Position numbers and translations under genes: made by a program. The notes below the pieces were generated by a model that had not been told where the DNA came from, did not search any database, and was given only the letters and a program-made list of their open reading frames with translations. Below, piece by piece: positions 20,326 through 36,648 of a stretch of 53,113 nt of DNA. Each line of letters opens with the position of its first letter. Position 1 is the stretch's first letter. This DNA is from Deltaproteobacteria bacterium (lineage in GTDB: Bacteria > Desulfobacterota > Desulfobacteria > Desulfobacterales > Desulfobacteraceae): the NCBI GenBank assembly GCA_013151635.1, contig JAADHV010000100.1, forward strand, positions 1 through 53,113, in the 5' to 3' direction.

Positions 20326-21714
20326 TCATTGTTTTCGCAAAGGGATGTCCCATTTTTTCATGTATTTCCATACTGAAGTCCGGCTTTTCCGGATTTGCCG
20401 GCCCACCTCGGCTTTATTCCAATTACATTTTTCAAGTAAATCCAAAAGAATGGGTTTAGTTAACCTGACCTGTTTATCCATCTGATGGCCATGGGTTTGG
20501 CCCACACCAAGGTATCCTTGTGGATGGCCTATCTCAAATGGAAGATCTTCAAGTCGAATCTGACGTGAATTACAGATGACAAAAGCATGTTCAATGGCAT
20601 TTTCAAGTTCCCTGATATTTCCAGGCCAGGGATGTTCCATCAATCTTTTCATTGCCTGGATTTCAACTTCTTTTATTGATTTATTTTCGTTTTCATTCCC
20701 TTTTTTAATGAAATGACTGACAAGGATAGGGATGTCTTCACGACGTTTTCTTAAAGGCGGAACATTTATGGGAAAAACCTTTAGTCTATAAAAAAGATCT
20801 TCCCTGAATTTTCCCTGTTGGGTCAGGTCATAAAGATTTTCATGGGTTGCAGCAATAATCCTGATATCAATTTTTCTTTTTTTTGACTCCCCTACCCGTT
20901 CGATTTCCCTTTCCTGGAGAACCCTTAAAAGTTTGACCTGCATATACGGCGTTAATTCCCCGATTTCATCCAGAAAGACAGTGCCACTGTCAGCTTCCTC
21001 GAATCGGCCGATACGGTCCCTGTGTGCCCCTGTAAATGCCCCTTTAACATGGCCGAACAGCTCACTTTCAAGCAAGGTTTCAGAAAGAGCCGAACAGTTT
21101 ACCGTTATCAAAGGATTGGAAGAAACAGCTCCATTATAATGGATGGCTCCCGCCACAAGCTCTTTTCCAGTCCCGCTTTCACCCTGGATCAAAACCGTGG
21201 CCCTGCTTTTGGCAGCAGCCCTGATTGCATCAAATACATTCTGCATCACCTGGCTTTTACCGATGATATTACCAAGCCTGTAAACTTGTTTCAGCTTCCT
21301 CTGGGCCTCTTCAGCAGTTTTTTTGATTTTTTTTAACTCAGTTAGATCAGTTATTGTTTCTACAATCCCAAGCACCTGCCCTTTCTCATCAATGGCAAGT
21401 CTTGCATTCTTTATAACAGCAACATCGTTTCCATTTTTATGGCGGATAAAACATTCCTTGGCCTCTGTTTTTCCATGCTTTATCACTCCGCATTTTTTAA
21501 TATCGGCAGGACATTTTTTACCAAAACACTGGCTGCACTCGATAAGACCGCAGGTATTGCCAACAGCTTCCTGTGCCCGGTATCCAGTGATTTTTTCCAT
21601 TGACTTGTTCCAGGAAGTGATTATACCCTGATCATCCAGGGTAAAAAGGCCCTCTGCCATTGTGTCAAGAATCTGGTTTAAAAAATTAACATTCCATAAT
21701 TCATGGGTTTTCAT
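20326..21714 (-). CDS. Sigma-54-dependent activator with cysteine-rich PAS sensor domain
   Basis: This 462-residue regulator has a PAS domain (residues about 10-125), a short coiled linker (125-145), a sigma-54 AAA+ domain with Walker A GESGTGKE (178-185), contact loop GAFTGA (225-230) and FREDLFYRLK, and a C-terminal Fis-type HTH (KCNWNKAEVGRQIRKSRTSV). The PAS core carries six cysteines (55, 60, 63, 68, 75, 88), a pattern that could bind an Fe-S cluster or metal or react with thiols. It is divergent from the thioredoxin/TusA/Qmo-like genes, and GTAAC repeats occur before it and before them, so it is the best candidate activator of that regulon. Start at 21714 is the first Met; homology starts immediately. 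Confidence 0.93.
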   Translation of the reverse strand: MKTHELWNVNFLNQILDTMAEGLFTLDDQGIITSWNKSMEKITGYRAQEAVGNTCGLIECSQCFGKKCPADIKKCGVIKHGKTEAKECFIRHKNGNDVAVIKNARLAIDEKGQVLGIVETITDLTELKKIKKTAEEAQRKLKQVYRLGNIIGKSQVMQNVFDAIRAAAKSRATVLIQGESGTGKELVAGAIHYNGAVSSNPLITVNCSALSETLLESELFGHVKGAFTGAHRDRIGRFEEADSGTVFLDEIGELTPYMQVKLLRVLQEREIERVGESKKRKIDIRIIAATHENLYDLTQQGKFREDLFYRLKVFPINVPPLRKRREDIPILVSHFIKKGNENENKSIKEVEIQAMKRLMEHPWPGNIRELENAIEHAFVICNSRQIRLEDLPFEIGHPQGYLGVGQTHGHQMDKQVRLTKPILLDLLEKCNWNKAEVGRQIRKSRTSVWKYMKKWDIPLRKQ

Positions 21715-21780: not shown

Positions 21781-22077
21781 TGCAAATTTCGAAATATAAT
21801 CAGCTTTTCTTTGGCATCTTTTTTTGATTTTTTTCAGTATCTGTCACCTGACAGGCATCTTTCATTCATGTAGATATCCCAATCTTGGGAAGGATATATG
21901 CCTGTACCAGGATATAAATTCCAAAAAAAATAAGAACATAAACTATATCTTCCATACGCACCTCATGGTTGCGGGTTCATAATACCATCCATAAATCGTA
22001 GAATTGCAAGGTATGTGCCATCTCTATATAATCCTATTGCCCATATAATATATATGATATGATATTTGTCAAAAAAG

Positions 22078-22241: not shown

Positions 22242-22296
22242 TATATCTTTTTTCATAGTTGTTATTTTATCAAACCATTTCATGGAGGATAAAAAA

Positions 22297-22596
22297 ATGG
22301 GTTTGGATCAATTTGAAAAAATCATTAAAAATGGTGTTACACTCGTGGATTTTAATGCACAATGGTGTGCTCCCTGCAAAGCACAGGAACCGATTATCAA
22401 AAAACTGATCAGTACATATAAAAATCGTGCTTCCATCCTTGAAATCAATATTGACGAGCATAGAACACTTGCTACGCAATATATGGTTCAAAGCATCCCT
22501 ACGTTGATTATTTTCAAAGATGGCAAAGAATTCAAGCGTTTTGTAGGCCTTCAAGCTGAAGCTGCTATTACAAAGAGTATGGATAACGCATTATAG
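22297..22596 (+). CDS. Thioredoxin-family protein
   Basis: This 99-residue protein is a small cytoplasmic thioredoxin fold. The active site is WCAPCK (Cys24 and Cys27), a variant of the classical WCGPC. The cis-proline loop is SIPTLIIFKDG. The ATG at 22297 follows GGAGG closely; upstream in-frame extension has no support. It is the first gene of a set whose later members (TusA, DsrE, Hdr-like) handle thiols and persulfides, so it may be a dedicated reductant rather than the housekeeping thioredoxin. It is followed 33 bp later by a Cys-rich small protein. Confidence 0.92.
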   Translation: MGLDQFEKIIKNGVTLVDFNAQWCAPCKAQEPIIKKLISTYKNRASILEINIDEHRTLATQYMVQSIPTLIIFKDGKEFKRFVGLQAEAAITKSMDNAL

Positions 22597-22629
22597 GACC
22601 TGAATAATTTTAAAAAACCGGAGGCCAAA

Positions 22630-22851
22630 ATGGGCAAATGTATCAATCATCCTGATCGGGAAACCAGCTATAACTGCATGAAACATAATGTTTATCTCTG
22701 CCGGGAATGTCTTGAATGCCGGGATCCTGATATTTATTGCAAGTTCAGGCCTTCCTGCCCGATTTATTTTATTACAAAAAAAGGCTTTGACTCATCAAAG
22801 CAAAAATCCGGGGCAGCTGCCGGCGGTATTCCCGCTGCCCCTCAATTTTGA
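22630..22851 (+). CDS. Small cysteine-rich (B-box-like zinc-binding) protein
   Basis: This 73-residue protein has Cys4, His7, Cys16, His19, Cys24, Cys27, Cys30, Cys37 and Cys43 within its first 45 residues (for example CINHPDRETSYNCMKH and LCRECLECRDP). The spacing suggests one or two zinc sites, or a redox-active cysteine set. I recall similar short proteins in sulfate reducers but know of no assigned function. The C-terminal 25 residues are low complexity (Ala/Gly/Pro). It is transcribed with the thioredoxin and ends in a terminator-like hairpin overlapping the stop. The Shine-Dalgarno is CCGGAGG. Confidence 0.8.
   Translation: MGKCINHPDRETSYNCMKHNVYLCRECLECRDPDIYCKFRPSCPIYFITKKGFDSSKQKSGAAAGGIPAAPQF
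22810..22848 (+). terminator. Terminator overlapping the end of the Cys-rich gene
   Basis: GGGGCAGC (22810-22817) pairs with GCTGCCCC (22834-22841) in an 8-bp GC stem, followed by TCAATTTT. It ends the thioredoxin/Cys-rich transcript, so tusA needs its own promoter, which fits the site at 23103. Confidence 0.65.
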
Positions 22852-22931
22852 TCTGAAATATTCAATTTTCCCCACGAATCAAGCATTATAAAAGAATTAT
22901 TATTATTTTCAAAACTTATATCATTAATTCG

Positions 22932-22991
22932 GTAACGGTTGATTTACAAAAAAGTAACGCAACCATAACGTTACCTATAAACAGAAGTAAC
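22932..22991. promoter_or_regulatory. Cluster of GTAAC/GTTAC half-sites upstream of the tusA operon (possible enhancer)
   Basis: Half-sites lie at 22932-22936, 22954-22958, 22970-22974 (within TAACGTTA) and 22987-22991; one more occurs at 23066-23070. They repeat the motif found before the PAS activator and thioredoxin. The cluster is 110-170 bp upstream of a good sigma-54 promoter. The remaining 22852-23204 interval shows no gene. Confidence 0.6.
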
Positions 22992-23102
22992 TGTCAAAAT
23001 CAAATTATGAGTTGTTTGATTGTTCCCTTTTAAATCAAAACGCCCTGAATTTACAGGCATCTTCGGTTACTTTTATTCTGTTTATAATCATTTTTTAAAA
23101 AC

Positions 23103-23118
23103 TGGCATCATCTTTGCT
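23103..23118 (+). promoter_or_regulatory. Sigma-54 promoter of the TusA/Qmo-like operon
   Basis: TGGCAT-N5-TTGCT has GG and GC exactly 10 bases apart and matches the consensus TGGCAC-N5-TTGCW at nearly every position. It is about 85 bp upstream of the tusA start. Together with the upstream repeats this predicts activation by an AAA+ enhancer-binding protein. Confidence 0.7.
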
Positions 23119-23204
23119 CTTTAACAACATTAAAAAAAAGGACACAGCATCTGAATTTCATTAAAAAAGATGCAATTATTAACCTAAAAACGGAGGATAA
23201 AAAA

Positions 23205-23453
23205 ATGACAGATTTAAATTCACTGGAAGCCGCAGCCCAGGTTGACGCAAGAGGCAGTGCATGCCCCGGACCCCTTCTTGAAGCAAAAAAAGGCATCGGC
23301 AAAGTCCAGGTGGGCCAGATCCTTGAAATTTTCTCCAATGATGCAGGAACAAGAAATGATATTCCGGCATGGGCCGGGAAAGTTGGTCATGAGTATCTTG
23401 GTTTTCTTGAAGCCGACGGATATGACAGGCATTTTGTAACCCGAAAAAAATAG
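23205..23453 (+). CDS. TusA-family sulfur carrier protein
   Basis: This 82-residue protein is a TusA/SirA-like fold, which carries a persulfide on a conserved cysteine and passes it to partner proteins. The active motif CPGP is at residues 20-23 after DARGSA, and the rest (LLEAKKGIGKVQVGQILEIF) fits the family, including the D-x-G segment. The Shine-Dalgarno is CGGAGG. It is the first gene after the sigma-54 promoter and 11 bp upstream of an MvhD-like gene, so it probably donates or accepts sulfane sulfur for the Hdr-like complex. It is unlikely to be the tRNA-thiolation TusA, because no TusBCDE are here. Confidence 0.9.
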   Translation: MTDLNSLEAAAQVDARGSACPGPLLEAKKGIGKVQVGQILEIFSNDAGTRNDIPAWAGKVGHEYLGFLEADGYDRHFVTRKK

Positions 23454-23464
23454 GGGGTCATCCC

Positions 23465-23887
23465 ATGGCCACACAGGACAAAAAAAAAGAACCGAAAATC
23501 ATCATTTTTGCCACGGAAGCCTGCGCCTACCCCGGTGCCAATTCTGTGGGGCAGGCGCATTCTTCCTATCCTGCCAACACCTATATTTTAAGGGTCAGGG
23601 CCCCGGTCCTGTTTCCTGAAGAATTTTATATAGACTGTTTTAGAAAAGGGTGTGCCGGAATTATTATCATGTCCTGCGGAGAGGAATGCCCGTATGAAGG
23701 TGCATATCACGCCCTCGCAAAACGGCTGGATAATGTATACAAACTGATGAAAAAAAAAGATATTAATATCAAACGCTTGCGCCTGACATCCATCTGTACG
23801 GTCTGCAACAGGGCATTCCTCAATGAAATCAACCAGATGAATACACTTGTGCAGGAAATGGGGCCGCCTGTCATGACTGAAAATTAA
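23465..23887 (+). CDS. MvhD-like (hydrogenase/Hdr iron-sulfur subunit) protein with altered cysteines
   Basis: This 140-residue protein matches the MvhD fold, which in Mvh-Hdr complexes and in the QmoB C terminus links partner proteins to HdrA through a [2Fe-2S] cluster. Family landmarks are AYPGANSVGQ, YPANTYILRV and the GII-x-MSCGEECPYEGAYHA segment. The usual first cysteine pair (CxWC-SYAGAD) is reduced to Cys20 and the Cys in the following strand is lost (RAPVLF). Other cysteines remain at 58, 63, 71, 75, 111 and 114. The cofactor may therefore differ or be absent. Here the domain is a separate gene, unlike in QmoB. Confidence 0.8.
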   Translation: MATQDKKKEPKIIIFATEACAYPGANSVGQAHSSYPANTYILRVRAPVLFPEEFYIDCFRKGCAGIIIMSCGEECPYEGAYHALAKRLDNVYKLMKKKDINIKRLRLTSICTVCNRAFLNEINQMNTLVQEMGPPVMTEN

Positions 23888-23940
23888 AGGATCATGGAAC
23901 TTAGATTAAATGTCCGTTTTTAAAATATGCGAGGCAAGGT

Positions 23941-25230
23941 ATGAATTCAAACAAAAGCTTAAAATTTGACACCATTGTCATAGGTGGGGGGATTGCCGGT
24001 TTACAAACGAGTTTAGACCTTGCCGATCAAGGATATAAGGTGGCAATCATTGAAAAGGATGCCTCTATCGGCGGCAAAATGATCCGCCTTGCCAAGGTGT
24101 TTCCAACTCTTGATTGTGCAAGCTGCATCACAACCCCAAAGATGTCTGCCGCTGCCCATCATGATAATATTACCCTTTTTACCTATTGTACCTTAAATTC
24201 CCTTGAACGCCGGGATAATAAAGCAACCGCCTCTGTAACGCAAAAGCCAAGATATGTTGATCCGGATAAATGCATTGGCTGCCGTCAATGCGAATACAAT
24301 TGCCCGGTATATGTACCTGACGGGGAACAGGGCAATTTTACTTTGAGAAAGGCTGCATATATTCCTTTTTCTACAGCAATTCCACAGCTTGCTTTAATTG
24401 ATACCCAAACCTGCTCTTTATGCGGCAAATGCGAAAAAGTATGCCCGACTAATGCCATTGATTATTTTCAAAAACCGGAAAATTTCGTCCTGGAAGCCAA
24501 AACTGCTGTTGTGACCACCGGGTTTAACCTGACAAAGGTTGACCAGAAAAAAGAATATGGCCAGGGCAGAATTGAGAATGTGATTACATCCCTTCAAATG
24601 GAAAGGATTCTTGCCCCCCATGGTCCGTACATGAGGGTCCTCAGGCCTTCCGACGGGAAAGAGCCTGAATCCATAGCCTTTGTACAATGTGCAGGTTCCA
24701 GGGATAAATCCCTTGGTATTTCCTATTGCTCAAGAGTGTGCTGCATGTATGCCATCAAACAATGCATGCTTCTTTCAGGCGCCCTGCCCCTGGCCGACCT
24801 TACTATTTATTATATGGATATCAGGGCATTTGGAAAAGGTCATGAACAATTCTACCAGAATGCAAAAGCCATGGGCATAGAATTTGTTAAAGGGAAAATT
24901 GCATCCATCAACCAGGGTGAAAACCAGGGTGTCGCTTTAAAATACGAAGCCCAGGAAGAAGGAGGCAGACTTGCAAGCCGGGAACATGATCTTGTGGTCC
25001 TTTCTCTGGGAATTGTGCCTGAATGGGATCCTGCAGGTATCTTAGACATATCCAAAGATCAAGATGCATTCATCCAGTGCAAAATGCCTAAAATCGCACC
25101 TGCCGTTACCAGTCTTGAGGGGGTGTTCACAGCCGGTGTGGCTTCAGGGCCAAAGGATATTGCAGATACAATTGCAGAATCCGGTGCTGCTGCAATGGAA
25201 GCATCAAACTTTATGCAAAACCGTTATTAA
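23941..25230 (+). CDS. QmoA/HdrA-like flavoprotein with two [4Fe-4S] ferredoxin motifs
   Basis: This 429-residue protein has an FAD-binding Rossmann start (IVIGGGIAGLQTSLDL, residues 12-27), the HdrA-type cysteine pair Cys59 and Cys62 (FPTLDCASCITTP) near the flavin, then two clusters: Cys111/114/117/121 (CIGCRQCEYNCP) and Cys158/161/164/168 (CSLCGKCEKVCP). The later flavoprotein part includes FVQCAGSRDKSLGISYCSRVC. Length and the GSRD-x-n-CSRVCC block are like QmoA (about 410). In Qmo, QmoA passes electrons between menaquinone and APS reductase; the partner here is unknown because aprAB is not in the window. Gene spacing (53 bp from MvhD-like, 21 bp to the next) indicates one operon. Confidence 0.85.
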   Translation: MNSNKSLKFDTIVIGGGIAGLQTSLDLADQGYKVAIIEKDASIGGKMIRLAKVFPTLDCASCITTPKMSAAAHHDNITLFTYCTLNSLERRDNKATASVTQKPRYVDPDKCIGCRQCEYNCPVYVPDGEQGNFTLRKAAYIPFSTAIPQLALIDTQTCSLCGKCEKVCPTNAIDYFQKPENFVLEAKTAVVTTGFNLTKVDQKKEYGQGRIENVITSLQMERILAPHGPYMRVLRPSDGKEPESIAFVQCAGSRDKSLGISYCSRVCCMYAIKQCMLLSGALPLADLTIYYMDIRAFGKGHEQFYQNAKAMGIEFVKGKIASINQGENQGVALKYEAQEEGGRLASREHDLVVLSLGIVPEWDPAGILDISKDQDAFIQCKMPKIAPAVTSLEGVFTAGVASGPKDIADTIAESGAAAMEASNFMQNRY

Positions 25231-25251
25231 TAAATAAAGTGAGATCGAATT

Positions 25252-27150
25252 ATGAGCAATGATAATGAAAAAAAACAAAATGATGATTCCTCGGAAAATA
25301 CTGTTGCTGACACTGAAAACAAAACCGGAACTATTGATAAGGAAAAAGTGGGTGTCTACATATGCCATTGCGGGGGTAACATTTCCGATCATGTTGATGT
25401 ACATAAACTTGCCGAAAATGTAAAAGGCCTGTCAGGGGTTGCCAAGGTCCACACTAATATGTTCATGTGTTCTGATCCTGGCCAGGAACTGATCCTGGAA
25501 GATATTAAAAATGGTGAAATCAACCGTGTGGTCGTTGCATCCTGCGCCCCCAGTCTTCATGAAACCACTTTCAGGGGAGCCATAAAAAGAGCCGGGATGA
25601 ATTCCTATCTATATGAGCATGCCAATATCAGGGAACAAGTGTCCTGGGTCCATGAGGGTGATCCTGCAACAAATAAAGCCACAAAACTTGTTGAAGCAGC
25701 TATTGGAAAAGCAAAAAACCTTGAAGCCCTTGACCCCATCCTTGTGGATGCGAAAAAGCATGCCACTGTCATAGGGGGCGGCATCGCCGGCATGAGAGCA
25801 ACTCTGGATCTTGCCAAACAGGGTTTTGAAGTAACGGTTATTGAAAAGTCTGCCTTCCTGGGAGGTCAGGCTGCCAGGCTTGACAGGCTTTACCCTAGTT
25901 CGGAATATTCCGGTGAATTGATCCGGGAACTTTTCAACGCTCTTATGAAGGAAAAAAAAGTGACCCTTTACACATGTGCTAAGATGTCAGCCTTTAAAGG
26001 ATCTGTCGGCAATTTCGAATTAACGGTTACAAGAACACCTGCTGCGATGGACAAGCACAGGCAAGGCCGGTTTGTTGATAACTTAGGCATTTTTATTGAC
26101 GATATCCCAAAAAGGATAGAAGACATCACGCTGAAAACCGGGGCTGTCATCATGGCAACAGGGTTTAAAACCTATACTCCTGCCAGAGGTGAATTCGGGT
26201 TTAAGGATATTGATAATGTTACAACCCTTCAACAATTTATCCAGGATTTCAAACATGCTGAAACCAAAGACGGAATTCTGTATTTAAATAATAAAAAAAT
26301 TACTCGAATTGCGTTTATTCATTGTGTCGGAAGCCGCCAGATACCCGGCATTCATAAACCGGATAAAAATGGCAATCTCAATGAATACTGCTCCAGAACC
26401 TGTTGCAGTGCAACTATTCAGGCAGCAGGCAGAATAAAAAAGACTTGCCCCAATACAGATGTATTTGATTTTTACAGGGACATAAGAACCTATGGACGGT
26501 TTCAAGAAGACCTGTACGATGAAACATCTGAAAACGGGGTGTTGTTTTTCAGGTTTGAACCGGAATCCCAGCCCCTTGTTTCGGCAAACCAGAAAGGAGA
26601 TTTCCCAGTAAATATAAAAGTCAAAGATGTTTTAACTTTTAACGAAGAACTCGAAGCCGATGTGGATCTTGTGGTACTTTCAACCGGTATGATGCCAAAT
26701 CCCATACCTGATATGGTAGATATGATGAAACTGCCTGTGGGTGCAGACCGGTTTTTACAGGAAGTTCACCCGAAACTGCGGCCGGTTGAAGTCGCAAATG
26801 CAGGAATCCTTCTGGCCGGAACCTGCCAGGCCCCCATGGATGTAACAGAGGCCTGCACTGCTGCCCAGGCAGCTTCTGTCAAAGCCACCGCCCTTCTTGG
26901 CAAGGGATTTGTAGAGCTTGACCCTTTTGTCGCAAAGGTAAATCCGGATTTGTGCAAAGGGACTGGTGATTGTGCAGAGGCGTGTCCTGTTGACAATGCC
27001 ATTGAAATTGAAAAACATGCCAGGGTCAACCCTGCACTTTGCACGGGCTGCGGCATATGTACTGCGGTCTGCCCTGAAAATGCCATTGATGTAAAGGGGT
27101 GGTCTTTAAAACAATATGTAAAAATGGTTGATGCCATTCTTGCCGCTTAA
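25252..27150 (+). CDS. HdrA/QmoB-like flavoprotein with C-terminal ferredoxin domain
   Basis: This 632-residue protein has the HdrA N-terminal domain (CHCGGNISDHVDV with Cys38 and Cys40; Cys73; Cys98 in SCAPSLHE), an FAD Rossmann domain (ATVIGGGIAGMRATLDL, 171-187) and a C-terminal ferredoxin. The segment that holds extra cysteines next to the flavin in HdrA reads LYPSSEYSGE here, with none. The first ferredoxin cluster motif is CKGTGDC-x3-CP (568-579), with Thr571 replacing the second Cys; the second (597, 600, 603, 607) is complete. The first 30 residues are a charged, low-complexity tail. It corresponds to the HdrA portion of QmoB, with the MvhD part encoded separately upstream. Confidence 0.85.
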   Translation: MSNDNEKKQNDDSSENTVADTENKTGTIDKEKVGVYICHCGGNISDHVDVHKLAENVKGLSGVAKVHTNMFMCSDPGQELILEDIKNGEINRVVVASCAPSLHETTFRGAIKRAGMNSYLYEHANIREQVSWVHEGDPATNKATKLVEAAIGKAKNLEALDPILVDAKKHATVIGGGIAGMRATLDLAKQGFEVTVIEKSAFLGGQAARLDRLYPSSEYSGELIRELFNALMKEKKVTLYTCAKMSAFKGSVGNFELTVTRTPAAMDKHRQGRFVDNLGIFIDDIPKRIEDITLKTGAVIMATGFKTYTPARGEFGFKDIDNVTTLQQFIQDFKHAETKDGILYLNNKKITRIAFIHCVGSRQIPGIHKPDKNGNLNEYCSRTCCSATIQAAGRIKKTCPNTDVFDFYRDIRTYGRFQEDLYDETSENGVLFFRFEPESQPLVSANQKGDFPVNIKVKDVLTFNEELEADVDLVVLSTGMMPNPIPDMVDMMKLPVGADRFLQEVHPKLRPVEVANAGILLAGTCQAPMDVTEACTAAQAASVKATALLGKGFVELDPFVAKVNPDLCKGTGDCAEACPVDNAIEIEKHARVNPALCTGCGICTAVCPENAIDVKGWSLKQYVKMVDAILAA

Positions 27151-27164
27151 AGGAGATAATTTTC

Positions 27165-27452
27165 ATGGACAACAAAAAAAATCATAAAGAAAAATTAAAA
27201 TTCCTGCGCCGGCAAAGAGCTGCTTTTGTTGACCAGGCAAGAGAACAGATCAAAATAAGCAACAACCTGTTTAAAAAGATCAAATCCCAGATTAAAGACC
27301 AGGCAATGACCATTCCTCAGATTGCCCAGGCGATTGAAGAGCCGTCCTCACTGGTTCTGGTTTATGTTTCGGGCCTTAAAAAATTCGGTCTTGCAGTAGA
27401 AAAGGAAAAAGATGGCGATTATTTCAAATATCAGTTGTCTTCAACGAATTAG
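27165..27452 (+). CDS. Small winged-helix-like protein within the Qmo-like operon
   Basis: This 95-residue basic protein has a helical Lys/Arg-rich N terminus (about 1-45) and a C-terminal winged-helix pattern (MTIPQIAQAIEEPSSLVLVY, then LKKFGLAVEKEKDGDYFKYQL). The wing and recognition helix resemble small MarR- or DprA-tail-like domains, but I do not recognise a family. AAGGAG lies before the ATG. Its place between the HdrA-like and QmoC-like genes suggests either a structural/assembly subunit or a local regulator. No cysteines are present, so it is not itself a redox carrier. Confidence 0.75.
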   Translation: MDNKKNHKEKLKFLRRQRAAFVDQAREQIKISNNLFKKIKSQIKDQAMTIPQIAQAIEEPSSLVLVYVSGLKKFGLAVEKEKDGDYFKYQLSSTN

Positions 27453-27471
27453 ATAAAAATGGAGAACGGTT

Positions 27472-28626
27472 ATGAGTTCTAAGGTAAATCCCGATATCAT
27501 GAAATTAATGGGGGAATATGGTGCTGATACTGCAGTCTCCTGTTTTAATTGTGGCAACTGCACCGCTGTCTGCTCACTTTCAACTGAAAATACACCTTTC
27601 CCGAGAAAGGTGATTCGGTACCTTCAGCTGGGCCTTAGTGACAAGCTTATCCAAAGCCCGGAACCCTGGTTGTGCTATTATTGCGGGGATTGTTCCGATA
27701 CCTGTCCCAGGGAAGCAGATCCTGGTGAAGTGATGATGGGCCTTCGCCGGTACCTGACAAGTCTATATGACTGGACAGGCATATCAAAGCTCTTTTACAC
27801 CTCAAAGGTCTTTGAGGTAATGGCGATTTTAGTTGTTGCCCTGCTTGTGGGTCTGGGATTTTTTTTCTTTCACGGCCCCATGCTGACAGATCGTATAGCC
27901 CTTAATGTTTTTGCCCCCAATACAACTATTGAGATTCTTGATCTTATCATGCTTAGTGTACTTTCATTTTTTCTTCTTTCCAATGCGTTTCGGCTGGCAC
28001 AGGGCGTCATGGGAGGTGCCTCAAACCACATTAAGAATTACAAGTGGCAAAAATGCCCTGCTGTTCTGATTTTTGGCGTGCCTGTTACGATCTATTACAA
28101 AGAATTTAAAGAATTTATTCTCCATTTTTTCACCCAGAAACGATTTAATTCCTGCGAAAACAAACAGCAGAGGGTTCTCTGGATTAACCATCTTTTGATC
28201 ATGACTGGTTATTCAACTATCTTCCTGATGGTAGTCCTGGGTATCAGATGGTTCCAGCGGGATGAAATCCTTTCAATTTTCAATCCCATCAGGTTCCTGG
28301 GATATTATGCCACCTTTGCCATTTTATACGGTACAACCCATGCCATGACCGGCAGGATCAAAAAGACAGTCAGGCCCTATATGAGGACCCATTCCACTGA
28401 CTGGGCTTTTCTTATCCTATTATGGCTGACCACTTTTTCCGGCATTCTGATCCACTTTGCCCGATTGCTGGAAATGCCTTTAGCCACCTATTATATCTAT
28501 GTTCTTCACTTGATGATTGCCGTTCCCATGCTGGTCATTGAAGTCCCCTTTGCAAAATGGACCCATCAATTGTACCGGCCACTGGTATTATACCTCATGA
28601 AAGTGAAAAAAAGGGCAGCAGCATGA
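27472..28626 (+). CDS. QmoC-like membrane subunit (HdrC-type Fe-S plus cytochrome b-type domain)
   Basis: This 384-residue protein fuses an HdrC-like soluble part with a membrane part. The first has two [4Fe-4S] motifs: Cys24/27/30/34 (CFNCGNCTAVC) and Cys68/71/74/78 (CYYCGDCSDTCP). The second (from about residue 105) has about six hydrophobic segments with histidines in INHLLIM, GTTHAMTG, LIHFARL and YVLHLM that could ligate b hemes, as in HdrE/NarI and QmoC. QmoC links the quinone pool to the soluble flavoproteins. The length equals known QmoC. This makes the cluster a membrane-bound electron transfer complex. Confidence 0.88.
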   Translation: MSSKVNPDIMKLMGEYGADTAVSCFNCGNCTAVCSLSTENTPFPRKVIRYLQLGLSDKLIQSPEPWLCYYCGDCSDTCPREADPGEVMMGLRRYLTSLYDWTGISKLFYTSKVFEVMAILVVALLVGLGFFFFHGPMLTDRIALNVFAPNTTIEILDLIMLSVLSFFLLSNAFRLAQGVMGGASNHIKNYKWQKCPAVLIFGVPVTIYYKEFKEFILHFFTQKRFNSCENKQQRVLWINHLLIMTGYSTIFLMVVLGIRWFQRDEILSIFNPIRFLGYYATFAILYGTTHAMTGRIKKTVRPYMRTHSTDWAFLILLWLTTFSGILIHFARLLEMPLATYYIYVLHLMIAVPMLVIEVPFAKWTHQLYRPLVLYLMKVKKRAAA

Positions 28627-28660
28627 AAAATAAATACTTTTAATAATAAGGAAATTAAAA

Positions 28661-29038
28661 ATGATTGAAGAAAAACAAGAAAAAATAATTTATTTTGCAA
28701 CCTGCGGCGGAGAAAACCCTGAAAAAGCAAGTTTACCATTTGTACTTGCCAACGCTGCACTGGCAATGGACATTAATGCCATGGTTGTCCTCCAGGGCAA
28801 TGGAGTTTATCTTGCAAAAGCAGAATACCGGAAAAATATGCTTCCCGGAGGTGCATTCCCGGATATTGATAAACTGCTAAAAGACTTTTTGGAGCTTGGA
28901 GGTGAACTTCATGTCTGCATGCCCTGCATTAAAGAGCGAAACATTGATGAGTCAGAACTGCCGGAAGGCTCTAAAATAACGGCAGCAGGCCAGATTAATA
29001 TCGCTGCAATTAAAGCGGATGCCCTGTTTGTCTATTAG
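28661..29038 (+). CDS. DsrE-family sulfur-transfer protein
   Basis: This 125-residue protein has the DsrE/TusD-type fold start (KIIYFATCGGENPEKASLPF) and a C-terminal cysteine pair in HVCMPCIKERNI (Cys86 and Cys89), the position of the active cysteine in DsrE-like proteins. Cys15 is a further candidate. DsrE proteins pass persulfide sulfur to or from TusA. It is 34 bp downstream of the QmoC-like gene in the same operon as tusA, which supports a sulfane-sulfur substrate for the complex. The direct partner cannot be identified from the sequence. Confidence 0.82.
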   Translation: MIEEKQEKIIYFATCGGENPEKASLPFVLANAALAMDINAMVVLQGNGVYLAKAEYRKNMLPGGAFPDIDKLLKDFLELGGELHVCMPCIKERNIDESELPEGSKITAAGQINIAAIKADALFVY

Positions 29039-29123
29039 GCAAACGCTCATTTAGCAGCCACAGGTTAACAATTTTTAATGACAGGAGATGAAAAATGGAT
29101 AATGCCGCATCAGGAAGGTACAC

Positions 29124-29669
29124 ATGAAAGAGCTGGAAGAAAAAATAAAAAAACTGGAAGAAAAAATAGATTTGATAGAAAAAAATCAGCCTGAAGACAA
29201 ACTTTCCATGGTCGTATTCAGTGGTGACCTTGATAAAGTGCTGGCGGCTTTTATCATTGCCACGGGTGCCGCAGCCATGTATGAACGTGTAGTCTTGTTC
29301 TTTACATTCTGGGGTACCACTGTTTTAAGAGACCTGAAAAAGAAAATAAAAAAAGAAGACCTTATGGCGGCAATGTTCGGTAAAATGCTTCCCAAGGGTT
29401 CTTCAAAACTTGGCCTTTCCAAGATGCACATGGCCGGCATGGGTACAGCCATGATGAAAAACCTCATGAAAAAAAAAGGGGTTATGTCTTTAGAGGATCT
29501 CATTAAAATTGCCGGGGATTCAGGCGTGGAAATTGTCATATGTGAAATGTCAATGGACCTTATGGGCTTTAAGCAGGAAGAAATGATTGATTACCCCAAT
29601 GTTATCCTTGGGGGTGTTGCCAAATACCTGCAGGAAGCCGCAACCAGTAAGGTATCCTTATTTATTTAA
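29124..29669 (+). CDS. DsrE2-like (DsrE/DsrF/DrsH-like) protein with coiled-coil N terminus
   Basis: This 181-residue protein opens with a charged coiled coil (residues 1-22, KELEEKIKKLEEKID). A DsrE2-type domain follows: LSMVVFSGDLDKVLAAFIIA, FFTFWGTTVLRD, and the conserved cysteine motif VICEMSMDLMG with Cys140. DsrE2 proteins are often found with TusA in sulfur-metabolising bacteria. The start at 29124 has CAGGAAGG before it; a 10-codon frame at 29095 overlaps this start and may be only leader. A weak hairpin follows the gene. Confidence 0.85.
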   Translation: MKELEEKIKKLEEKIDLIEKNQPEDKLSMVVFSGDLDKVLAAFIIATGAAAMYERVVLFFTFWGTTVLRDLKKKIKKEDLMAAMFGKMLPKGSSKLGLSKMHMAGMGTAMMKNLMKKKGVMSLEDLIKIAGDSGVEIVICEMSMDLMGFKQEEMIDYPNVILGGVAKYLQEAATSKVSLFI

Positions 29670-29687
29670 AACACGCTGTCGCCAAAA

Positions 29688-29709
29688 TGGAATTAACCAT
29701 TCCAATATT
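29688..29709 (+). terminator. Weak terminator-like hairpin after the DsrE2-like gene
   Basis: TGGAAT (29688-29693) pairs with ATTCCA (29699-29704) around TAACC, followed by TATTTTT. The stem is only 6 bp and low in GC, so termination is probably partial. Confidence 0.35.
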
Positions 29710-29789
29710 TTTCCTGATAATATCAAGCTTGATAAAAGGTATAAAAGACTTATTTTCAAGCAAACCATAATTATACCGAGGACAAGACC

Positions 29790-29969
29790 ATGCCTATTTT
29801 TGAATACCAGTGTAATAAATGCAAGACCGATTTTACAAAGCTTATTTTTGCAGGAGAAGAAGATAAGATCAAATGCCCTGAATGCAGCAGTAAAGATATA
29901 AAAAAGAAAATGAGTATGTGCAGCAGCATAAGTTCATGCACATCTAAAACATCCAAAGGATTTTCCTGA
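29790..29969 (+). CDS. FmdB-family small zinc ribbon protein
   Basis: A 59-residue frame starts with MPIFEYQCNKC, the standard opening of FmdB-type regulatory zinc ribbons, and has the two cysteine pairs CNKC (8, 11) and CPEC (29, 32). Extra cysteines occur in the tail (MCSSISSC). A GAGGA site lies before the ATG. These proteins are common in anaerobes and their biochemical function is unclear. It is the last gene of the sulfur/redox cluster, 120 bp after the DsrE2-like gene, and faces the convergent lpd. Confidence 0.85.
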   Translation: MPIFEYQCNKCKTDFTKLIFAGEEDKIKCPECSSKDIKKKMSMCSSISSCTSKTSKGFS

Positions 29970-32189: not shown

Positions 32190-33431
32190 ATGAACACCTG
32201 TTTAAAAACTACGCCTTTGAATGACTGGCATAAGGCTGCGGGAGCAAATATGGCTGACTTCGGAGGATTTGAGATGCCGTTATGGTATGAAACCGGGGTT
32301 AAAAATGAACACCTCTGGGTCTTAAAATCAGCAGGCATTTTTGATACCAGCCACATGGCCTGTATCAATATTAACGGGAAAGGCTCTTTTGGACTTATAA
32401 ATCATTGTTTTACAAGGGACATTACCACACTTGAAAAAAGCCGATGTGCATATGGTGCATTTTTAGATACAAACGGCCACTGCATTGATGATGCCATTGT
32501 TTACAAATTTTGGGATACTTGTTTTATGGTATGTGTGAATGCCGGAATGGGCGCAACTATTGCCCGGCACCTTGAAGCAAACGCTAAAGGCATGGATGTA
32601 ATAATTGAGGATTTATCTTTAAAAATTGCCAAGATGGATATACAGGGCATCAATTCTGCCAGGATTCTTTCTAAACTGGTCCAGAACCCCGGAAAGGTTT
32701 TTAATAAAATGCCCTATTTTTCATTTAAAGGCAATTTCAATGAATCAGAATCCCGGGTAAAACTTCTGGACGGAACGCCGGTATTATTGTCAAGGTCAGG
32801 TTATACCGGTGAATTCGGATTTGAGATTTTCCTCAACCCTGGTTCAATTGTAAAACTTTGGAAAGACATTTTATTGGCAGGAAAAGAATATGGAATTGCC
32901 GCCTGTGGTTTAGGTGCAAGGGATTCCTTAAGGGCCGGGGCATGTCTGCCCTTATCCCATCAGGACATTGGAGCATGGCAATTCATAAACCATCCGTGGG
33001 ATTTTGCACTTCCTTATAATAATGACAAAACATCTTTTACCAAGAATTTTATCGGGGCTGATTCACTTTTACCTGCCAGGGCTGATTCATTTACATATCC
33101 CTTTGCCGGTGACTCTTTAAGAAAGGTTTCTTCAACAGACAGCACCAAGGTGATAGATACAAATGGAGAACAGATAGGCAGAGTACTGACCTGCGCTACT
33201 GACATGGGTATCGGCTGGCATAAGGGAAATATTGTGAGCATATGCTCAGAAAATCTTCCCCGTGACTTTAAAATAAAAGGGATAAGTTGTGGTTTCATCA
33301 TGGTTACAAAAAAACTTGAGCCAGGCATGAAATTAAAACTTAAAGAAGGCAAAAGAACGATAACTGCGACCATTGTAACAGATATAAGACCTGACAGGAC
33401 TGCAAGAAAAAAACTTGATAATTTTATTTAA
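32190..33431 (+). CDS. gcvT: Glycine cleavage system T protein (aminomethyltransferase), divergent
   Basis: This 413-residue protein transfers the methylene group from the aminomethyl-lipoyl H protein to tetrahydrofolate, releasing ammonia. Recognised segments are ADFGGFEMPLWY, GIFDTSHM, the catalytic Asp region CIDDAIVYKF and YTGEFGFEIF. It is about 50 residues longer than typical GcvT and GLGARDSLRAGACLPL departs from the usual GLGARD-x-LR-x-EAGMPLYG, with Glu missing. The C-terminal barrel ends in a normal DIRPDRTARKKL-type tail. Its position directly before gcvH, gcvPA and gcvPB makes GcvT its role despite the divergence. Confidence 0.9.
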   Translation: MNTCLKTTPLNDWHKAAGANMADFGGFEMPLWYETGVKNEHLWVLKSAGIFDTSHMACININGKGSFGLINHCFTRDITTLEKSRCAYGAFLDTNGHCIDDAIVYKFWDTCFMVCVNAGMGATIARHLEANAKGMDVIIEDLSLKIAKMDIQGINSARILSKLVQNPGKVFNKMPYFSFKGNFNESESRVKLLDGTPVLLSRSGYTGEFGFEIFLNPGSIVKLWKDILLAGKEYGIAACGLGARDSLRAGACLPLSHQDIGAWQFINHPWDFALPYNNDKTSFTKNFIGADSLLPARADSFTYPFAGDSLRKVSSTDSTKVIDTNGEQIGRVLTCATDMGIGWHKGNIVSICSENLPRDFKIKGISCGFIMVTKKLEPGMKLKLKEGKRTITATIVTDIRPDRTARKKLDNFI

Positions 33432-33452
33432 CAATTATTATTGGAGGCTTTC

Positions 33453-33851
33453 ATGAAAGAAATTAGCGATCTAAACTTACCGGATGATATGAAATATACA
33501 AAAGACCATGAATGGGCCAGGCTTTCCGGTGACATTGTAACGGTTGGAATTAATGACTATGCCCAGGACCAGCTTGGAGAAGTTGTTTTTGTAGAACTTC
33601 CTGAAACCGGCGATACATTGTCAAAAGGAGATGAATTTGGAAGTGTGGAATCTGTAAAAGCAGTTTCGGAAATCTATATCCCGGTCTCAGGAGAGATTAT
33701 GGAAATCAATGAAGATCTTGAAGATGCACCTGAGCTTGTTAATGAATCATGTTATGAAAAAGGATGGCTCATCAAAGTAAAACCGGAAGATGTTTCCGAG
33801 CTGGATAACCTTATGGATAAAGCTGAATACCTTGATATGCTGAAAGGATAA
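33453..33851 (+). CDS. gcvH: Glycine cleavage system H protein
   Basis: This 132-residue carrier shuttles the lipoyl-bound aminomethyl group between P, T and L proteins. The lipoylation lysine is Lys69 in GSVESVKAVSEIY, and KYTKDHEWARL and DYAQDQLGEVVFVELP are canonical. The ATG at 33453 follows TTGGAGG; the upstream TTG is part of the ribosome site. The sequence matches a true GcvH, not the LbpA type of sulfur oxidisers, which keeps it with glycine metabolism. It is 5 bp upstream of gcvPA. Confidence 0.95.
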   Translation: MKEISDLNLPDDMKYTKDHEWARLSGDIVTVGINDYAQDQLGEVVFVELPETGDTLSKGDEFGSVESVKAVSEIYIPVSGEIMEINEDLEDAPELVNESCYEKGWLIKVKPEDVSELDNLMDKAEYLDMLKG

Positions 33852-33856
33852 AAGCC

Positions 33857-35191
33857 ATGCGCTATCTTCCCCATACCAAAGAAGATATCAAAACTATGCT
33901 CAAGATCACGGGGCAATCCAGCCTTGACAGCCTGTTTGAGTGCATACCCGAAGATCTTAAGACAAAACAAAGCATTGACATTCCCCAAAGCTTATCAGAA
34001 TGGGAACTCAATGCCCACATGGAAGAGCTTGCTTCTTCAAATATTGCCTGTAAAGACTACAAATGCTTTATTGGAGGCGGCAGCTATGATCACTTTATTC
34101 CCGCTATTATCCCTTATTTGATTTCAAGATCGGAATTCATGACTGCTTATACCCCCTACCAGCCGGAAGTCAGCCAGGGAACCTTACAGGGTATTTATGA
34201 ATTCCAGACCATGATAACAGAACTTTTAGGCATGGATGTTGCCACGGCATCCCATTATGATTGCGGGACCGCATTAGCAGAAGCCTGCCTTATTGCATTA
34301 AAAAAGAACAGGGAAAAAAATAAAATCGCGATTTCAGCCCTTGCACATCCGAGCCACAGGCAGATCGTTCAAACCTATATCCGTCCTACAGGATATGAAA
34401 TAATTGAAATCCCTTATACAAAAGAGGGTCTTACAGACATGAATGCCCTTGCAGGGATGGATGACCTTGCAGGAATTGCAGTTCAATCCCCGAATTTTTT
34501 CGGGAATATAGAAGATTTAAAAGCTGTAAAAGCTGTTGCAGACTCTAAAAAGGCTTTATTTATAACCTCTTTTACAGAGGCCATGTCTTATGGACTTTTA
34601 AAAAACCCGGGCCAGTTTGGTGCTGACCTTGTTGCAGGTGAAGGCCAGAGCCTTGGTATTGCCAAATCATTTGGCGGGCCTGGTTTGGGACTGCTTGCAG
34701 GAACTAAAAAACAAATGCGGAACCTTCCGGGACGGTTTATCGGGAAAACCCTGGATGCCAATGGTGATAACGGGTATGTATTGACCCTTGCCACAAGAGA
34801 ACAGCATATAAAAAGAGAAAAAGCCTCTTCCAATATCTGTTCCAATAACGGGCTCAACGCCATGACAGCTGCCATGTACCTTGCCACGGTCGGAAAAATC
34901 GGTATCAGGGAAATCGCACAGCAAAACCATGATAAAGCGGTTTACCTTAAGAAAAGTCTTGTAAATGCAGGTTTTGAACCCTGTTTTGATAAACCTTTTT
35001 TCAACGAGTTTGTCCTCAAACCACCAAAAGGGTTTGAGCAAAAAAGAGCAGCCTTGATCCAGGACAAATGCATCTTTGCCGGAATGGACCTTGAGCCTTT
35101 CTATCCTGAAATGAAGCAACACTATCTTTTCTGCTCAACAGAAACCGTTTCAAAAGATGATATTGATCAACTGGCAAAGGAGGTGCAATAA
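33857..35191 (+). CDS. gcvPA: Glycine dehydrogenase (decarboxylating) subunit 1
   Basis: This 444-residue protein is the N-terminal half of the two-subunit P protein. It shows RYLPHTKEDIKTML, GGGSYDHFIPAII, the YTPYQPEVSQGTLQGIYEFQ block, VAGEGQSLG and the C-terminal YFC-like segment (HYLFCSTETVS). PLP is bound by the partner subunit. The start follows AAGGA and the stop codon overlaps the gcvPB start (TAATG). Length is normal for the split-P type. Confidence 0.95.
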   Translation: MRYLPHTKEDIKTMLKITGQSSLDSLFECIPEDLKTKQSIDIPQSLSEWELNAHMEELASSNIACKDYKCFIGGGSYDHFIPAIIPYLISRSEFMTAYTPYQPEVSQGTLQGIYEFQTMITELLGMDVATASHYDCGTALAEACLIALKKNREKNKIAISALAHPSHRQIVQTYIRPTGYEIIEIPYTKEGLTDMNALAGMDDLAGIAVQSPNFFGNIEDLKAVKAVADSKKALFITSFTEAMSYGLLKNPGQFGADLVAGEGQSLGIAKSFGGPGLGLLAGTKKQMRNLPGRFIGKTLDANGDNGYVLTLATREQHIKREKASSNICSNNGLNAMTAAMYLATVGKIGIREIAQQNHDKAVYLKKSLVNAGFEPCFDKPFFNEFVLKPPKGFEQKRAALIQDKCIFAGMDLEPFYPEMKQHYLFCSTETVSKDDIDQLAKEVQ

Positions 35192-36648
35192 TGGATAACC
35201 AGCCTGGAGCAAGCGGCCTTATTTTCAACGAACCAAGTCTTTGGGAGAAAAGCCGCAAAGGACGATGCGCCATTTCCCTGCCAAAGGCGGATGTTGAAAG
35301 AGCAGAGCTTGACAAAGACCTTACAGGTGATGCACCGGAACTTCCCCAGCTTTCAGAGCTTGATGTGGTACGGCATTATACACGCCTTTCCCAATGGAAT
35401 TTCGGAGTTGATTCCGGCATGTACCCATTGGGTTCTTGCACCATGAAATATAATCCCAAAACCAATGAAGTGCAGGCTGCACTTAAGGGATTTGCCGGGG
35501 CCCACCCCTTTTCCGGTGATGAATTTTCTCAAGGGTCATTAAAGCTTATGTATAACCTTGAGCAATACCTGGCAAAGATAACAGGTTTTGATACGCTCAC
35601 ACTTCAACCGGCAGCGGGTGCCCACGGCGAACTTACCGGCATGCTCATGATCCATGCATATTTTGCAAAAAAAGGAAAGCAGCGTTCCAAAATTATCATA
35701 CCTGACACCGCACATGGCACCAATCCTGCGAGTGCAGCCCTTTGCGGCTATATCCCTGTCAATATCAAGTCAGGGGAAAAAGGGATTCTCGACCCTGAAA
35801 CAGTTGCAGCCGTCATGGATGAAGATACAGCAGGAATCATGGTGACCAATCCCAATACCCTGGGGCTTTTTGAATCCAACATCAGTAAAATTGCAGATAT
35901 TATACATTCAAAAGGAGGTCTTGTTTACGGCGACGGCGCTAACATGAATGCCATTATGGGCATTGTAAAGCCGGGAGAAATAGGTATTGATGTCCTCCAT
36001 CTAAACCTTCACAAGACTTTTTCAACCCCCCATGGCGGCGGCGGCCCAGGCTCCGGACCTGTTGCGGTTGGCAAAGCTCTTGAGCCTTTTTTGCCTGTCC
36101 CAAGGGTTGTAAAGGACCTGGATTCATATAAGCTTGTCAGTGACTATCCTGATACTATCGGCAAAATCCATACCTTTTACGGGCACTTCGGCATTATGGT
36201 CAGGGCCTATGCATATATTCTTTCAATGGGTGCCAAGGGACTTTTAGATTCAAGCAGGCTTGCCGTGCTTAGTGCCAATTATATCAAGGAAAGCCTGAAA
36301 GGCACGCTTAATCTTCCCTATGATATGCCGTGCATGCATGAATGTGTATTTAATGATGAGTTCCAAAGTAAAAACAACGTTACAACTGTAGATATGGCTA
36401 AAAGACTTCTGGATTACGGATTTCATCCGCCAACGATCTACTTTCCACTGGTTGTACACGGGGCATTTATGATAGAACCCACGGAAACAGAATCCAAAGA
36501 GGATATTGACCAGTTCATAGATGCTGTAAAAGCCATTGCCAGAGAAGCAGAAGAAGACCCTGAAAAACTCAGGAAAGCACCTTTTCTTACAAAAGTCACA
36601 AGGCTGGATGAAGTCACTGCTGCAAGAAAACCATGCCTTCGAGGGTAA
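35191..36648 (+). CDS. gcvPB: Glycine dehydrogenase (decarboxylating) subunit 2
   Basis: This 485-residue subunit carries PLP and decarboxylates glycine, loading the H protein. The PLP lysine is in LNLHKTFSTPHGGGGPG. Other conserved blocks are MYPLGSCTMKYNP, QPAAGAHGELTGMLMI, DTAHGTNPASAA and MIEPTETESKEDIDQF. Translational coupling with gcvPA (1-base overlap) ensures equal subunits. Its end overlaps the lipB start by 16 bp. Confidence 0.96.
   Translation: MDNQPGASGLIFNEPSLWEKSRKGRCAISLPKADVERAELDKDLTGDAPELPQLSELDVVRHYTRLSQWNFGVDSGMYPLGSCTMKYNPKTNEVQAALKGFAGAHPFSGDEFSQGSLKLMYNLEQYLAKITGFDTLTLQPAAGAHGELTGMLMIHAYFAKKGKQRSKIIIPDTAHGTNPASAALCGYIPVNIKSGEKGILDPETVAAVMDEDTAGIMVTNPNTLGLFESNISKIADIIHSKGGLVYGDGANMNAIMGIVKPGEIGIDVLHLNLHKTFSTPHGGGGPGSGPVAVGKALEPFLPVPRVVKDLDSYKLVSDYPDTIGKIHTFYGHFGIMVRAYAYILSMGAKGLLDSSRLAVLSANYIKESLKGTLNLPYDMPCMHECVFNDEFQSKNNVTTVDMAKRLLDYGFHPPTIYFPLVVHGAFMIEPTETESKEDIDQFIDAVKAIAREAEEDPEKLRKAPFLTKVTRLDEVTAARKPCLRG

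Follow-up and report, generated by a model that had tools for sequence, protein, structure and literature searches.

A TusA/DsrE-associated Hdr/Qmo-superfamily gene cluster as a candidate link between sulfane sulfur and menaquinone, and its soluble sister form

It is not settled how sulfate reducers and bacteria free of Dsr and Apr link their cytoplasmic sulfane sulfur to quinones, a question that is prominent for sulfur disproportionation and for sulfur oxidation by organisms classed as 'reducers'. A gene cluster that bears on it lies in a stretch of 53,113 nucleotides from a Deltaproteobacteria bacterium (Desulfobacteraceae; contig JAADHV010000100.1 of assembly GCA_013151635.1), the whole of which is referred to as the window. 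The cluster is a one-strand run of genes on the plus strand in the order tusA-mvhD-hdrA1-hdrA2-WH-qmoC-like-dsrE-dsrE2-fmdB-like (23205-29969), where WH stands for a winged-helix protein. Judged from its sequence, there is a somewhat better than even chance that it encodes a membrane complex from the Hdr/Qmo superfamily through which electrons pass between menaquinone and the sulfane sulfur carried by TusA (Cys20) and DsrE (Cys86).

Conservation of the gene set and its separation from canonical Qmo

The QmoC-like protein was used as the only bait, and the neighbourhoods of the 80 loci fetched, which are the best 80 of 266 relatives, were then read (loci and genomes are numbered with the prefixes L and G). 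In a set of 42 loci, which includes the window and two relatives and leaves out L101, HdrA1, HdrA2 and QmoC were found in 42 loci each, WH in 41, MvhD in 36 and TusA in 33, with the misses mostly at contig ends. Because the best match per locus was taken, the numbers for HdrA1 and MvhD are upper limits, and a few of the picks (HdrA1 in L093 and L107, MvhD in L043 and L081) are other members of the families. The order tusA-mvhD-hdrA1-hdrA2-WH-qmoC recurs across phyla, which points to more than chance. The hosts, nearly all of them metagenome-assembled genomes, are labelled as Desulfobacterota or 'Deltaproteobacteria', Chloroflexota, Bacteroidota, Zixibacteria and one Planctomycetota.

TusA was present in 31 of the 33 loci that are long enough to show it, based on 40 loci of the HdrA1/HdrA2/WH type or close to it that were hand-picked from the 80, seven of which end before tusA. 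Leaving out L101, whose cluster is identical to that of L100 over 8.7 kb, the count is 30 of 32. By an automatic rule, TusA was found in 30 of 39 loci; L101, which is left out of the 42-locus set, appears without matches in this analysis, though its TusA exists. Nine of the 39 are without TusA: L044, L056, L105 and L117 end too early, and L104, L108, L112, L114 and L116 carry tandem HdrA. The latter loci, of which L104, L108 and L114 are from Methanoperedens and an uncultured archaeon, are treated as another architecture, in which the gene for the window-type QmoC lies close to genes for tandem HdrA and MvhD-type proteins.

A control set of 33 loci with canonical QmoA/QmoB and the same QmoC type contained no TusA, WH, DsrE or activator of the type encoded beside the window cluster, and had aprA in 12 loci; nine of the 33 are shorter than 8.3 kb. 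Conversely, aprA was not in view in any of the 39 cluster-type loci, and none of them had a GcvH/LbpA-like match over 40 bits. CCG matches occurred in four of the 39, three of the tandem-HdrA kind and L081, where the match is on the opposite strand, 6.4 kb past qmoC.

The host genome holds a separate canonical Qmo. A whole-genome search with the QmoC model returned one canonical match of 489.8 bits, which is over the cut-off, the window protein at 192 bits, which is under it, and weaker partial matches. The canonical gene is part of an aprB-aprA-qmoA-qmoB-qmoC cluster apart from the window, and the only aprA match found in the genome adjoins this qmoABC, on contig 27. As dsrA is also present, the host is a sulfate reducer by gene content. 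Since the genome contains this separate aprBA-qmoABC, the window set is a paralogue, as proposed in an earlier note on this DNA, which had also seen no aprAB in the window.

The relationship of the flavoproteins was assessed with an HdrA tree built by a quick method on a subsample, for which 17 loci of the set were dropped and 8 canonical-Qmo loci were used. QmoA and QmoB form one clade (support 100), and both HdrA1 and HdrA2 lie outside it. HdrA2 is a single clade across phyla (99), and its closest grouping is with the second of the two HdrA domains in tandem HdrA proteins (100). HdrA1 needs two changes on the tree because the Bacteroidales row L118, which is probably not of this cluster type, falls elsewhere, and its sister is not resolved. 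On these positions, the idea of a QmoB split in two was rejected. From its sequence relationships, the window set looks like a separate Hdr-derived assembly that has only its QmoC-like subunit in common with some true Qmo operons. Of the interpretation in the earlier note, the paralogy and the conservation of TusA and DsrE as neighbours, which is borne out across phyla, therefore stand, the split of QmoB does not, and the soluble sister form described below lay beyond its view.

The QmoC tree mixes the window type with the QmoC proteins of Syntrophobacteraceae and other true qmoABC operons, and the canonical QmoC of the host genome is on a very long branch. The canonical qmoA-qmoB operons of Syntrophobacteraceae and others in which the window-type QmoC was seen, and not the type found in the host's own canonical operon, include L057, L058, L060-L071 and L073-L080. 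This occurrence in true qmoABC operons marks QmoC as a module that different complexes share and have exchanged.

Among 34 scanned genomes that carry the cluster at least in part, dsrA was over the cut-off in 15 and aprA in 14. Thirteen Chloroflexota genomes with a full or partial cluster, including L093 without tusA and hdrA1 at the place, contained no aprA and one dsrA (L100), so adenosine 5'-phosphosulfate reductase is not needed there.

A soluble sister form and the candidate reaction

A search with the WH protein in 389 genomes of the class found 54 with a match over 90 bits, compared to 13 with a full-length window-type QmoC. All of the 12 loci that were fetched from the other WH genomes contain tusA-mvhD-hdrA1-hdrA2-WH, and in all 12 a short HdrC and an HdrB of about 308 amino acids (aa) take the place of QmoC. 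This HdrC aligns with QmoC residues 3-97 only, and the four HdrB proteins scanned all match the CCG domain PF02754. DsrE is next in 11 of the 12 loci; the other, L139, ends too early. The soluble sister form is new here.

Soluble HdrB of at least 223 bits was found in 41 of the 389 genomes, with the next match at 166 bits. The 54 WH genomes comprise 13 with the membrane form, 40 with the soluble form and G235, in which part of a membrane-form QmoC was found at contig ends; in G325, the soluble HdrB is present and WH gave no match. The full membrane form occurs in 13 and the soluble form in 41 of the 389 genomes, and both in full in none. G349, which carries a QmoC fragment of 69% identity at the end of a contig and no WH match, is counted in neither form. 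One genome counted as soluble, G218, carries in addition a QmoC-like fragment of 52% identity, likewise at the end of a contig. The 25 other genomes of the window's genus include one with the membrane form and seven with the soluble form. In a tree of the constant subunits (43 rows, quick method, root not tested, 11 loci with partial or odd HdrA skipped), a single change separates the two forms. Since, in addition, the Chloroflexota and Bacteroidota rows are of the membrane form, the simplest reading of these sequences is that QmoC was replaced by HdrC and HdrB once, within the Desulfobacterota.

The exchange bears on the possible mechanism. TusA, MvhD, HdrA1, HdrA2 and WH, and usually DsrE, stay while the outlet is exchanged, which suggests that the carriers act on the constant module. 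We infer that TusA and DsrE are the redox partner of the complex, and they would deliver sulfur to, or collect it from, the invariant MvhD-HdrA1-HdrA2-WH module. QmoC would set the electron partner, which would be menaquinone in the membrane form, and the HdrB site would take its place in the soluble form. Electrons would pass, in either direction, between carrier-bound sulfur, the flavin and Fe-S chain of HdrA1, HdrA2 and MvhD, the two 4Fe-4S sites of the QmoC head, and its membrane part and the quinone. With midpoint potentials of about -270 mV for sulfane sulfur/sulfide and about -74 mV for menaquinone, oxidation would be downhill to menaquinone and reduction would need added energy. For this reason, a modest preference over reduction is given to the oxidative direction, in which menaquinone would accept electrons from reduced or carrier-bound sulfur and the product might be persulfide or sulfite. 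More tentatively, and with rather less than even confidence, the gene set can be read as an undescribed TusA/DsrE-sulfane-sulfur:menaquinone oxidoreductase of five phyla, independent of Dsr and Apr, whose portable core would feed quinone through QmoC or disulfide through HdrBC, with one exchange inside the Desulfobacterota.

Several observations weigh against these proposals. The window form is without HdrB, whose CCG domain is where Hdr enzymes act on disulfides, and thus has no obvious place for the sulfur chemistry. Four TusA-family matches were found in the genome, which means that TusA has other uses too, and two evaluable loci (L093, L118) as well as the five tandem-HdrA loci with the same QmoC type are without tusA. 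The DsrE genes downstream vary, with DsrE directly next to QmoC in 27 of the 39 loci. The zero overlap of the two forms is weak by itself, since only about 1.4 co-occurrences (13 x 41 / 389) are expected by chance. MetV-like genes downstream in some loci leave a role in one-carbon metabolism open. Finally, dsrA is present in the genome of L100 and was not found in that of L101 despite their identical clusters, so single absences in draft genomes may be gaps, although the overall pattern holds. The lines of evidence are all comparative, and a conserved neighbourhood shows that the genes share a function and not which reaction they serve.

The same genes could serve in the reductive direction, where quinol would drive the release of sulfide from TusA/DsrE persulfide, as in a cytoplasmic sulfane sulfur or thiosulfate reductase, with the membrane potential possibly helping. 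Several hosts show no Dsr or Apr, a YeeE/YedE sulfur transporter is encoded with further sulfur-carrier genes in five of the 39 loci, all Chloroflexota (PF04143 confirmed for L095), and a protein of the coenzyme A-disulfide-reductase/rhodanese type in two, all of which would fit such a use; the transporter and rhodanese-type genes count equally for the preferred reading. As this direction is uphill from menaquinol at the potentials given above, it is considered unlikely. A variant of the sHdr pathway, in which TusA-bound sulfur would be oxidized to sulfite and QmoC would take up the electrons, would account for TusA and DsrE beside Hdr-type proteins and for HdrC and HdrB in the soluble form. 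It is less likely still, given that no HdrB/CCG protein was found among the window proteins scanned and that the 39 loci are without an LbpA-like match, although PMC6067878 describes lbpA as inevitably linked to sHdr.

A role as the quinone-linked complex of a methylenetetrahydrofolate reductase (MetFV), akin to MetFV-HdrABC, would leave TusA and DsrE a side role. MetV-like genes lie downstream in L041, L042 and L047, that is, in three of the 39 loci, and also in L121, L128 and L129, where they adjoin a gene that we take to be MetF-like. However, TusA is near-universal and the other 36 of the 39 loci, Chloroflexota included, have no MetV match, though some of these loci end soon after qmoC, and this role is very improbable. 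That the cluster is a redundant Qmo serving AprAB is hardly credible, even though its QmoC belongs to the family and Syntrophobacteraceae, among others, have the same QmoC type in their canonical qmoABC operons. HdrA1 and HdrA2 lie outside QmoAB, aprBA adjoins the other qmoABC, and the hosts without aprA largely refute this reading; a second Qmo for AprAB was rejected on the latter two findings.

Subunits, regulation and neighbouring genes

The genes of the cluster are closely spaced (gaps of 11, 53, 21, 14, 19, 34, 85 and 120 nt from tusA to the fmdB-like gene), all on the plus strand. The genes named in the earlier note were recovered at the coordinates given here, and their families agree with the scans, except that the WH and Cys-rich proteins have no family over the cut-off and the fmdB-like frame was outside the scan. 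TusA (23205-23453; PF01206, 2.1e-18) has its active-site Cys20 in a CPGP motif. This Cys is conserved in 32 of 33 rows, the exception being L053, for which a Cys-less TusA domain was aligned. A Cys-less TusA-family protein is encoded right before the true TusA at L040:5332-5610, L131:5571-5873 and L133:14394-14621, and that of L040 matches PF01206 with 34.8 bits. MvhD/FlpD (23465-23887; PF02662, 8.2e-20) is a stand-alone Fe-S subunit. The DsrE-type sulfurtransferase (28661-29038; PF02635, 6.4e-15) has Cys86 in a CxxC motif, present in 38 of 38 ungapped rows. The DsrE2-like protein with its single Cys140 (29124-29669; PF13686, 1.5e-51) reaches 81.2 bits with the SulfCarrDsrE2 model, below the cut-off of 210, and full-length DsrE2 occurs in six of the 42 loci.

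According to the family scans, and for HdrA1 also the tree, HdrA1 (23941-25230) is an HdrA flavin core into which two ferredoxin motifs are inserted, and HdrA2 (25252-27150) is an HdrA with an N-terminal domain and two C-terminal ferredoxin-type motifs. They score 456.7 and 484.7 bits, respectively, with the NCBIfam HdrA2 model, both below its cut-off of 1100. The first C-terminal motif of HdrA2 is one Cys short, with Thr in its place (Cys 568, 574, 578), and the second is complete (Cys 597, 600, 603, 607). At the flavin-site lysine position, presumably K409 in M. wolfeii HdrA, the window HdrA1 has Lys and HdrA2 has Gln. All 12 soluble-form rows have this Lys in HdrA1. The motif was matched in 35 rows of the membrane set, and 33 of these carry the Lys; the remaining two are mis-picks, and seven further rows gave no match to the motif. 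HdrA2 has Q, H, R, S or Y in membrane-form loci, with the sole K in L118, and N, A or Y in the 12 soluble ones. The HdrA1 lysine was considered as a mark of electron bifurcation and rejected, since QmoA and QmoB rows with the motif also carry it.

The QmoC-like subunit (27472-28626), described from the NCBIfam scan, an alignment and a structure model, combines an HdrC-type Fe-S head with about six predicted membrane helices, and scores 192.7 bits with the QmoC model, below the NCBIfam cut-off of 300. H240, H328, H346 and H365 are invariant across 51 sequences, and the membrane part presumably binds heme b; a fold search gave weak matches, to HdrC with E values of 0.07 at best and to NarI with 2.6. 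Many open reading frames of about 770 aa in L023-L038 (710-808 aa) match QmoC over their N-terminal half, and in L024, the one scanned, two CCG stretches follow the QmoC-like half, as in an HdrD-like fusion.

The WH protein (27165-27452, 95 aa) was assigned from its recurrence with the system and a structure model with a winged-helix half (mean predicted local distance difference test score, pLDDT, 93); it has a sub-cut-off Pfam match only. Its fold search gave generic winged-helix proteins, the nearest of SmtB/MarR type and none under E 0.001. The idea of an unrelated regulator was rejected, given its presence in 41 of the 42 loci and the fact that 53 of the 54 strong matches in the class are in genomes with either form.

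Divergent from the cluster, a PAS/sigma-54 activator-type regulator is encoded on the minus strand (20326-21714). It was recognized from its open reading frame and the scanned equivalent in L051, which matches PF00158, PAS and a Fis helix-turn-helix; homologues over 150 bits occur in 16 of the 39 loci, at any position. The window contains exactly two strict -24/-12-like sites (TGGCAYN5TTGCW), one upstream of the regulator (22005-22020, minus strand) and one starting 102 nt upstream of tusA (23103-23118, plus strand), compared to 0.19 expected, and two or more were found in three of 100 shuffles. A strict site lies within 700 nt upstream of tusA in nine of 33 loci, the window counted, all of the Desulfobacterota type. 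The regulator likely controls the cluster, the gene set is probably sigma-54-controlled in Desulfobacterota, and promoter and activator would probably turn on its expression in response to a particular condition. The PAS part has several Cys (CGLIECSQCFGKKC-type) both in the window protein and in L121:5591-6967 and is possibly a redox or metal sensor.

Upstream, on the plus strand, a thioredoxin-like protein with a CAPC motif (22297-22596; PF00085, 1.1e-24) is followed by a 73-aa Cys-rich protein with seven Cys (22630-22851), which had no family over the cut-off in Pfam and NCBIfam scans and is separated from tusA by 353 nt. Its homologue in L050 also adjoins a thioredoxin. The same 16-nt ribosome-binding and start context (GGAGGATAAAAAAATG) is found ahead of the thioredoxin (22284-22299) and of tusA (23192-23207).

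Downstream, the 59-aa frame at 29790-29969 is, by its look, presumably FmdB-like, and homologues lie some way past the soluble-form clusters of L128 and L129. A 234-aa Cys-containing protein, without Pfam or NCBIfam match, follows dsrE in 11 of the 39 loci (e.g. L046:11920-12624) and occurs in soluble-form clusters; it was not seen in the window cluster. Beyond the cluster, after an opposite-strand gene of the dihydrolipoamide-dehydrogenase type, glycine-cleavage-type genes lie at 32190-36645, which we take to be gcvT, gcvH and two GcvP-type genes. GcvH is part of this set, about 3.5 kb past the cluster, and the link is not kept in relatives, as 0 of the 39 loci have GcvH.

Comparison with known systems

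No description of this gene set was found in the literature searched, the coverage of which leaves out most subscription journals, nor in the accessible parts of PMC13293266, PMC12142623, PMC2702500, PMC10553843, PMC4911364, PMC6397845, PMC5165239, PMC5276818, PMC9751629 and PMC6067878. The combination of a fixed carrier partner with two interchangeable electron outlets makes the question of the link between sulfane sulfur and quinone directly testable, and provides a concrete partner hypothesis for Hdr/Qmo-like proteins that are otherwise merely named heterodisulfide reductase.

A close comparison by description is the little-studied type II Qmo, in which QmoAB resemble HdrA more and QmoC is of a second type; it occurs both in the presence and in the absence of Dsr/Apr, and its role is yet to be clarified (PMC10504309). 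The window HdrA pair is likewise closer to HdrA than to type I QmoAB, and the cluster may overlap with this type. TusA, DsrE and WH neighbours or an HdrBC-swapped form of the set are not mentioned in the part of that paper available for this comparison. The exchange of QmoC for HdrBC in the soluble sister form is of the same kind as in QmoAB-HdrBC (PMC10504309) and MetFV-HdrABC-MvhD (PMC10553843), as far as these are described in the accessible text, and MetV downstream in some loci is a further likeness to the latter. However, MetV is inconstant here, and the TusA/DsrE/WH core distinguishes this set from both.

The canonical type I QmoABC likewise combines a pair of HdrA-type flavoproteins with an MvhD-type domain and a membrane subunit of the QmoC type. 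The cluster differs in that its QmoC scores 192.7 bits against a cut-off of 300 and 489.8 for the other QmoC of the genome, its HdrA1 and HdrA2 lie outside the QmoA+QmoB clade, aprBA is not linked to it (aprA in 0 of 39 loci), mvhD is a stand-alone gene whereas the domain is fused to QmoB there, and TusA, DsrE and WH are added. The sHdr system likewise encodes Hdr-like proteins with TusA and DsrE-type partners. Membership in it was rejected because the ten window proteins scanned have no PF02754 (HdrB-like CCG), which is present in the soluble form, and no lipoate-binding LbpA was found in window-type clusters (0 of 39 with GcvH-like matches over 40 bits); the window type also has the QmoC-type membrane subunit. 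YTD/DsrEFH type II, as described in the accessible part of PMC13293266, resembles the set by TusA with a DsrE-type protein in sulfate reducers, and five Chloroflexota versions have YeeE/YedE, for which one query protein gave no match in the window frames; in contrast to it, the window set contains an Hdr/Qmo redox complex. By these sequence comparisons, the cluster departs from canonical Qmo, sHdr and YTD/DsrEFH type II in at least one tested defining feature each.

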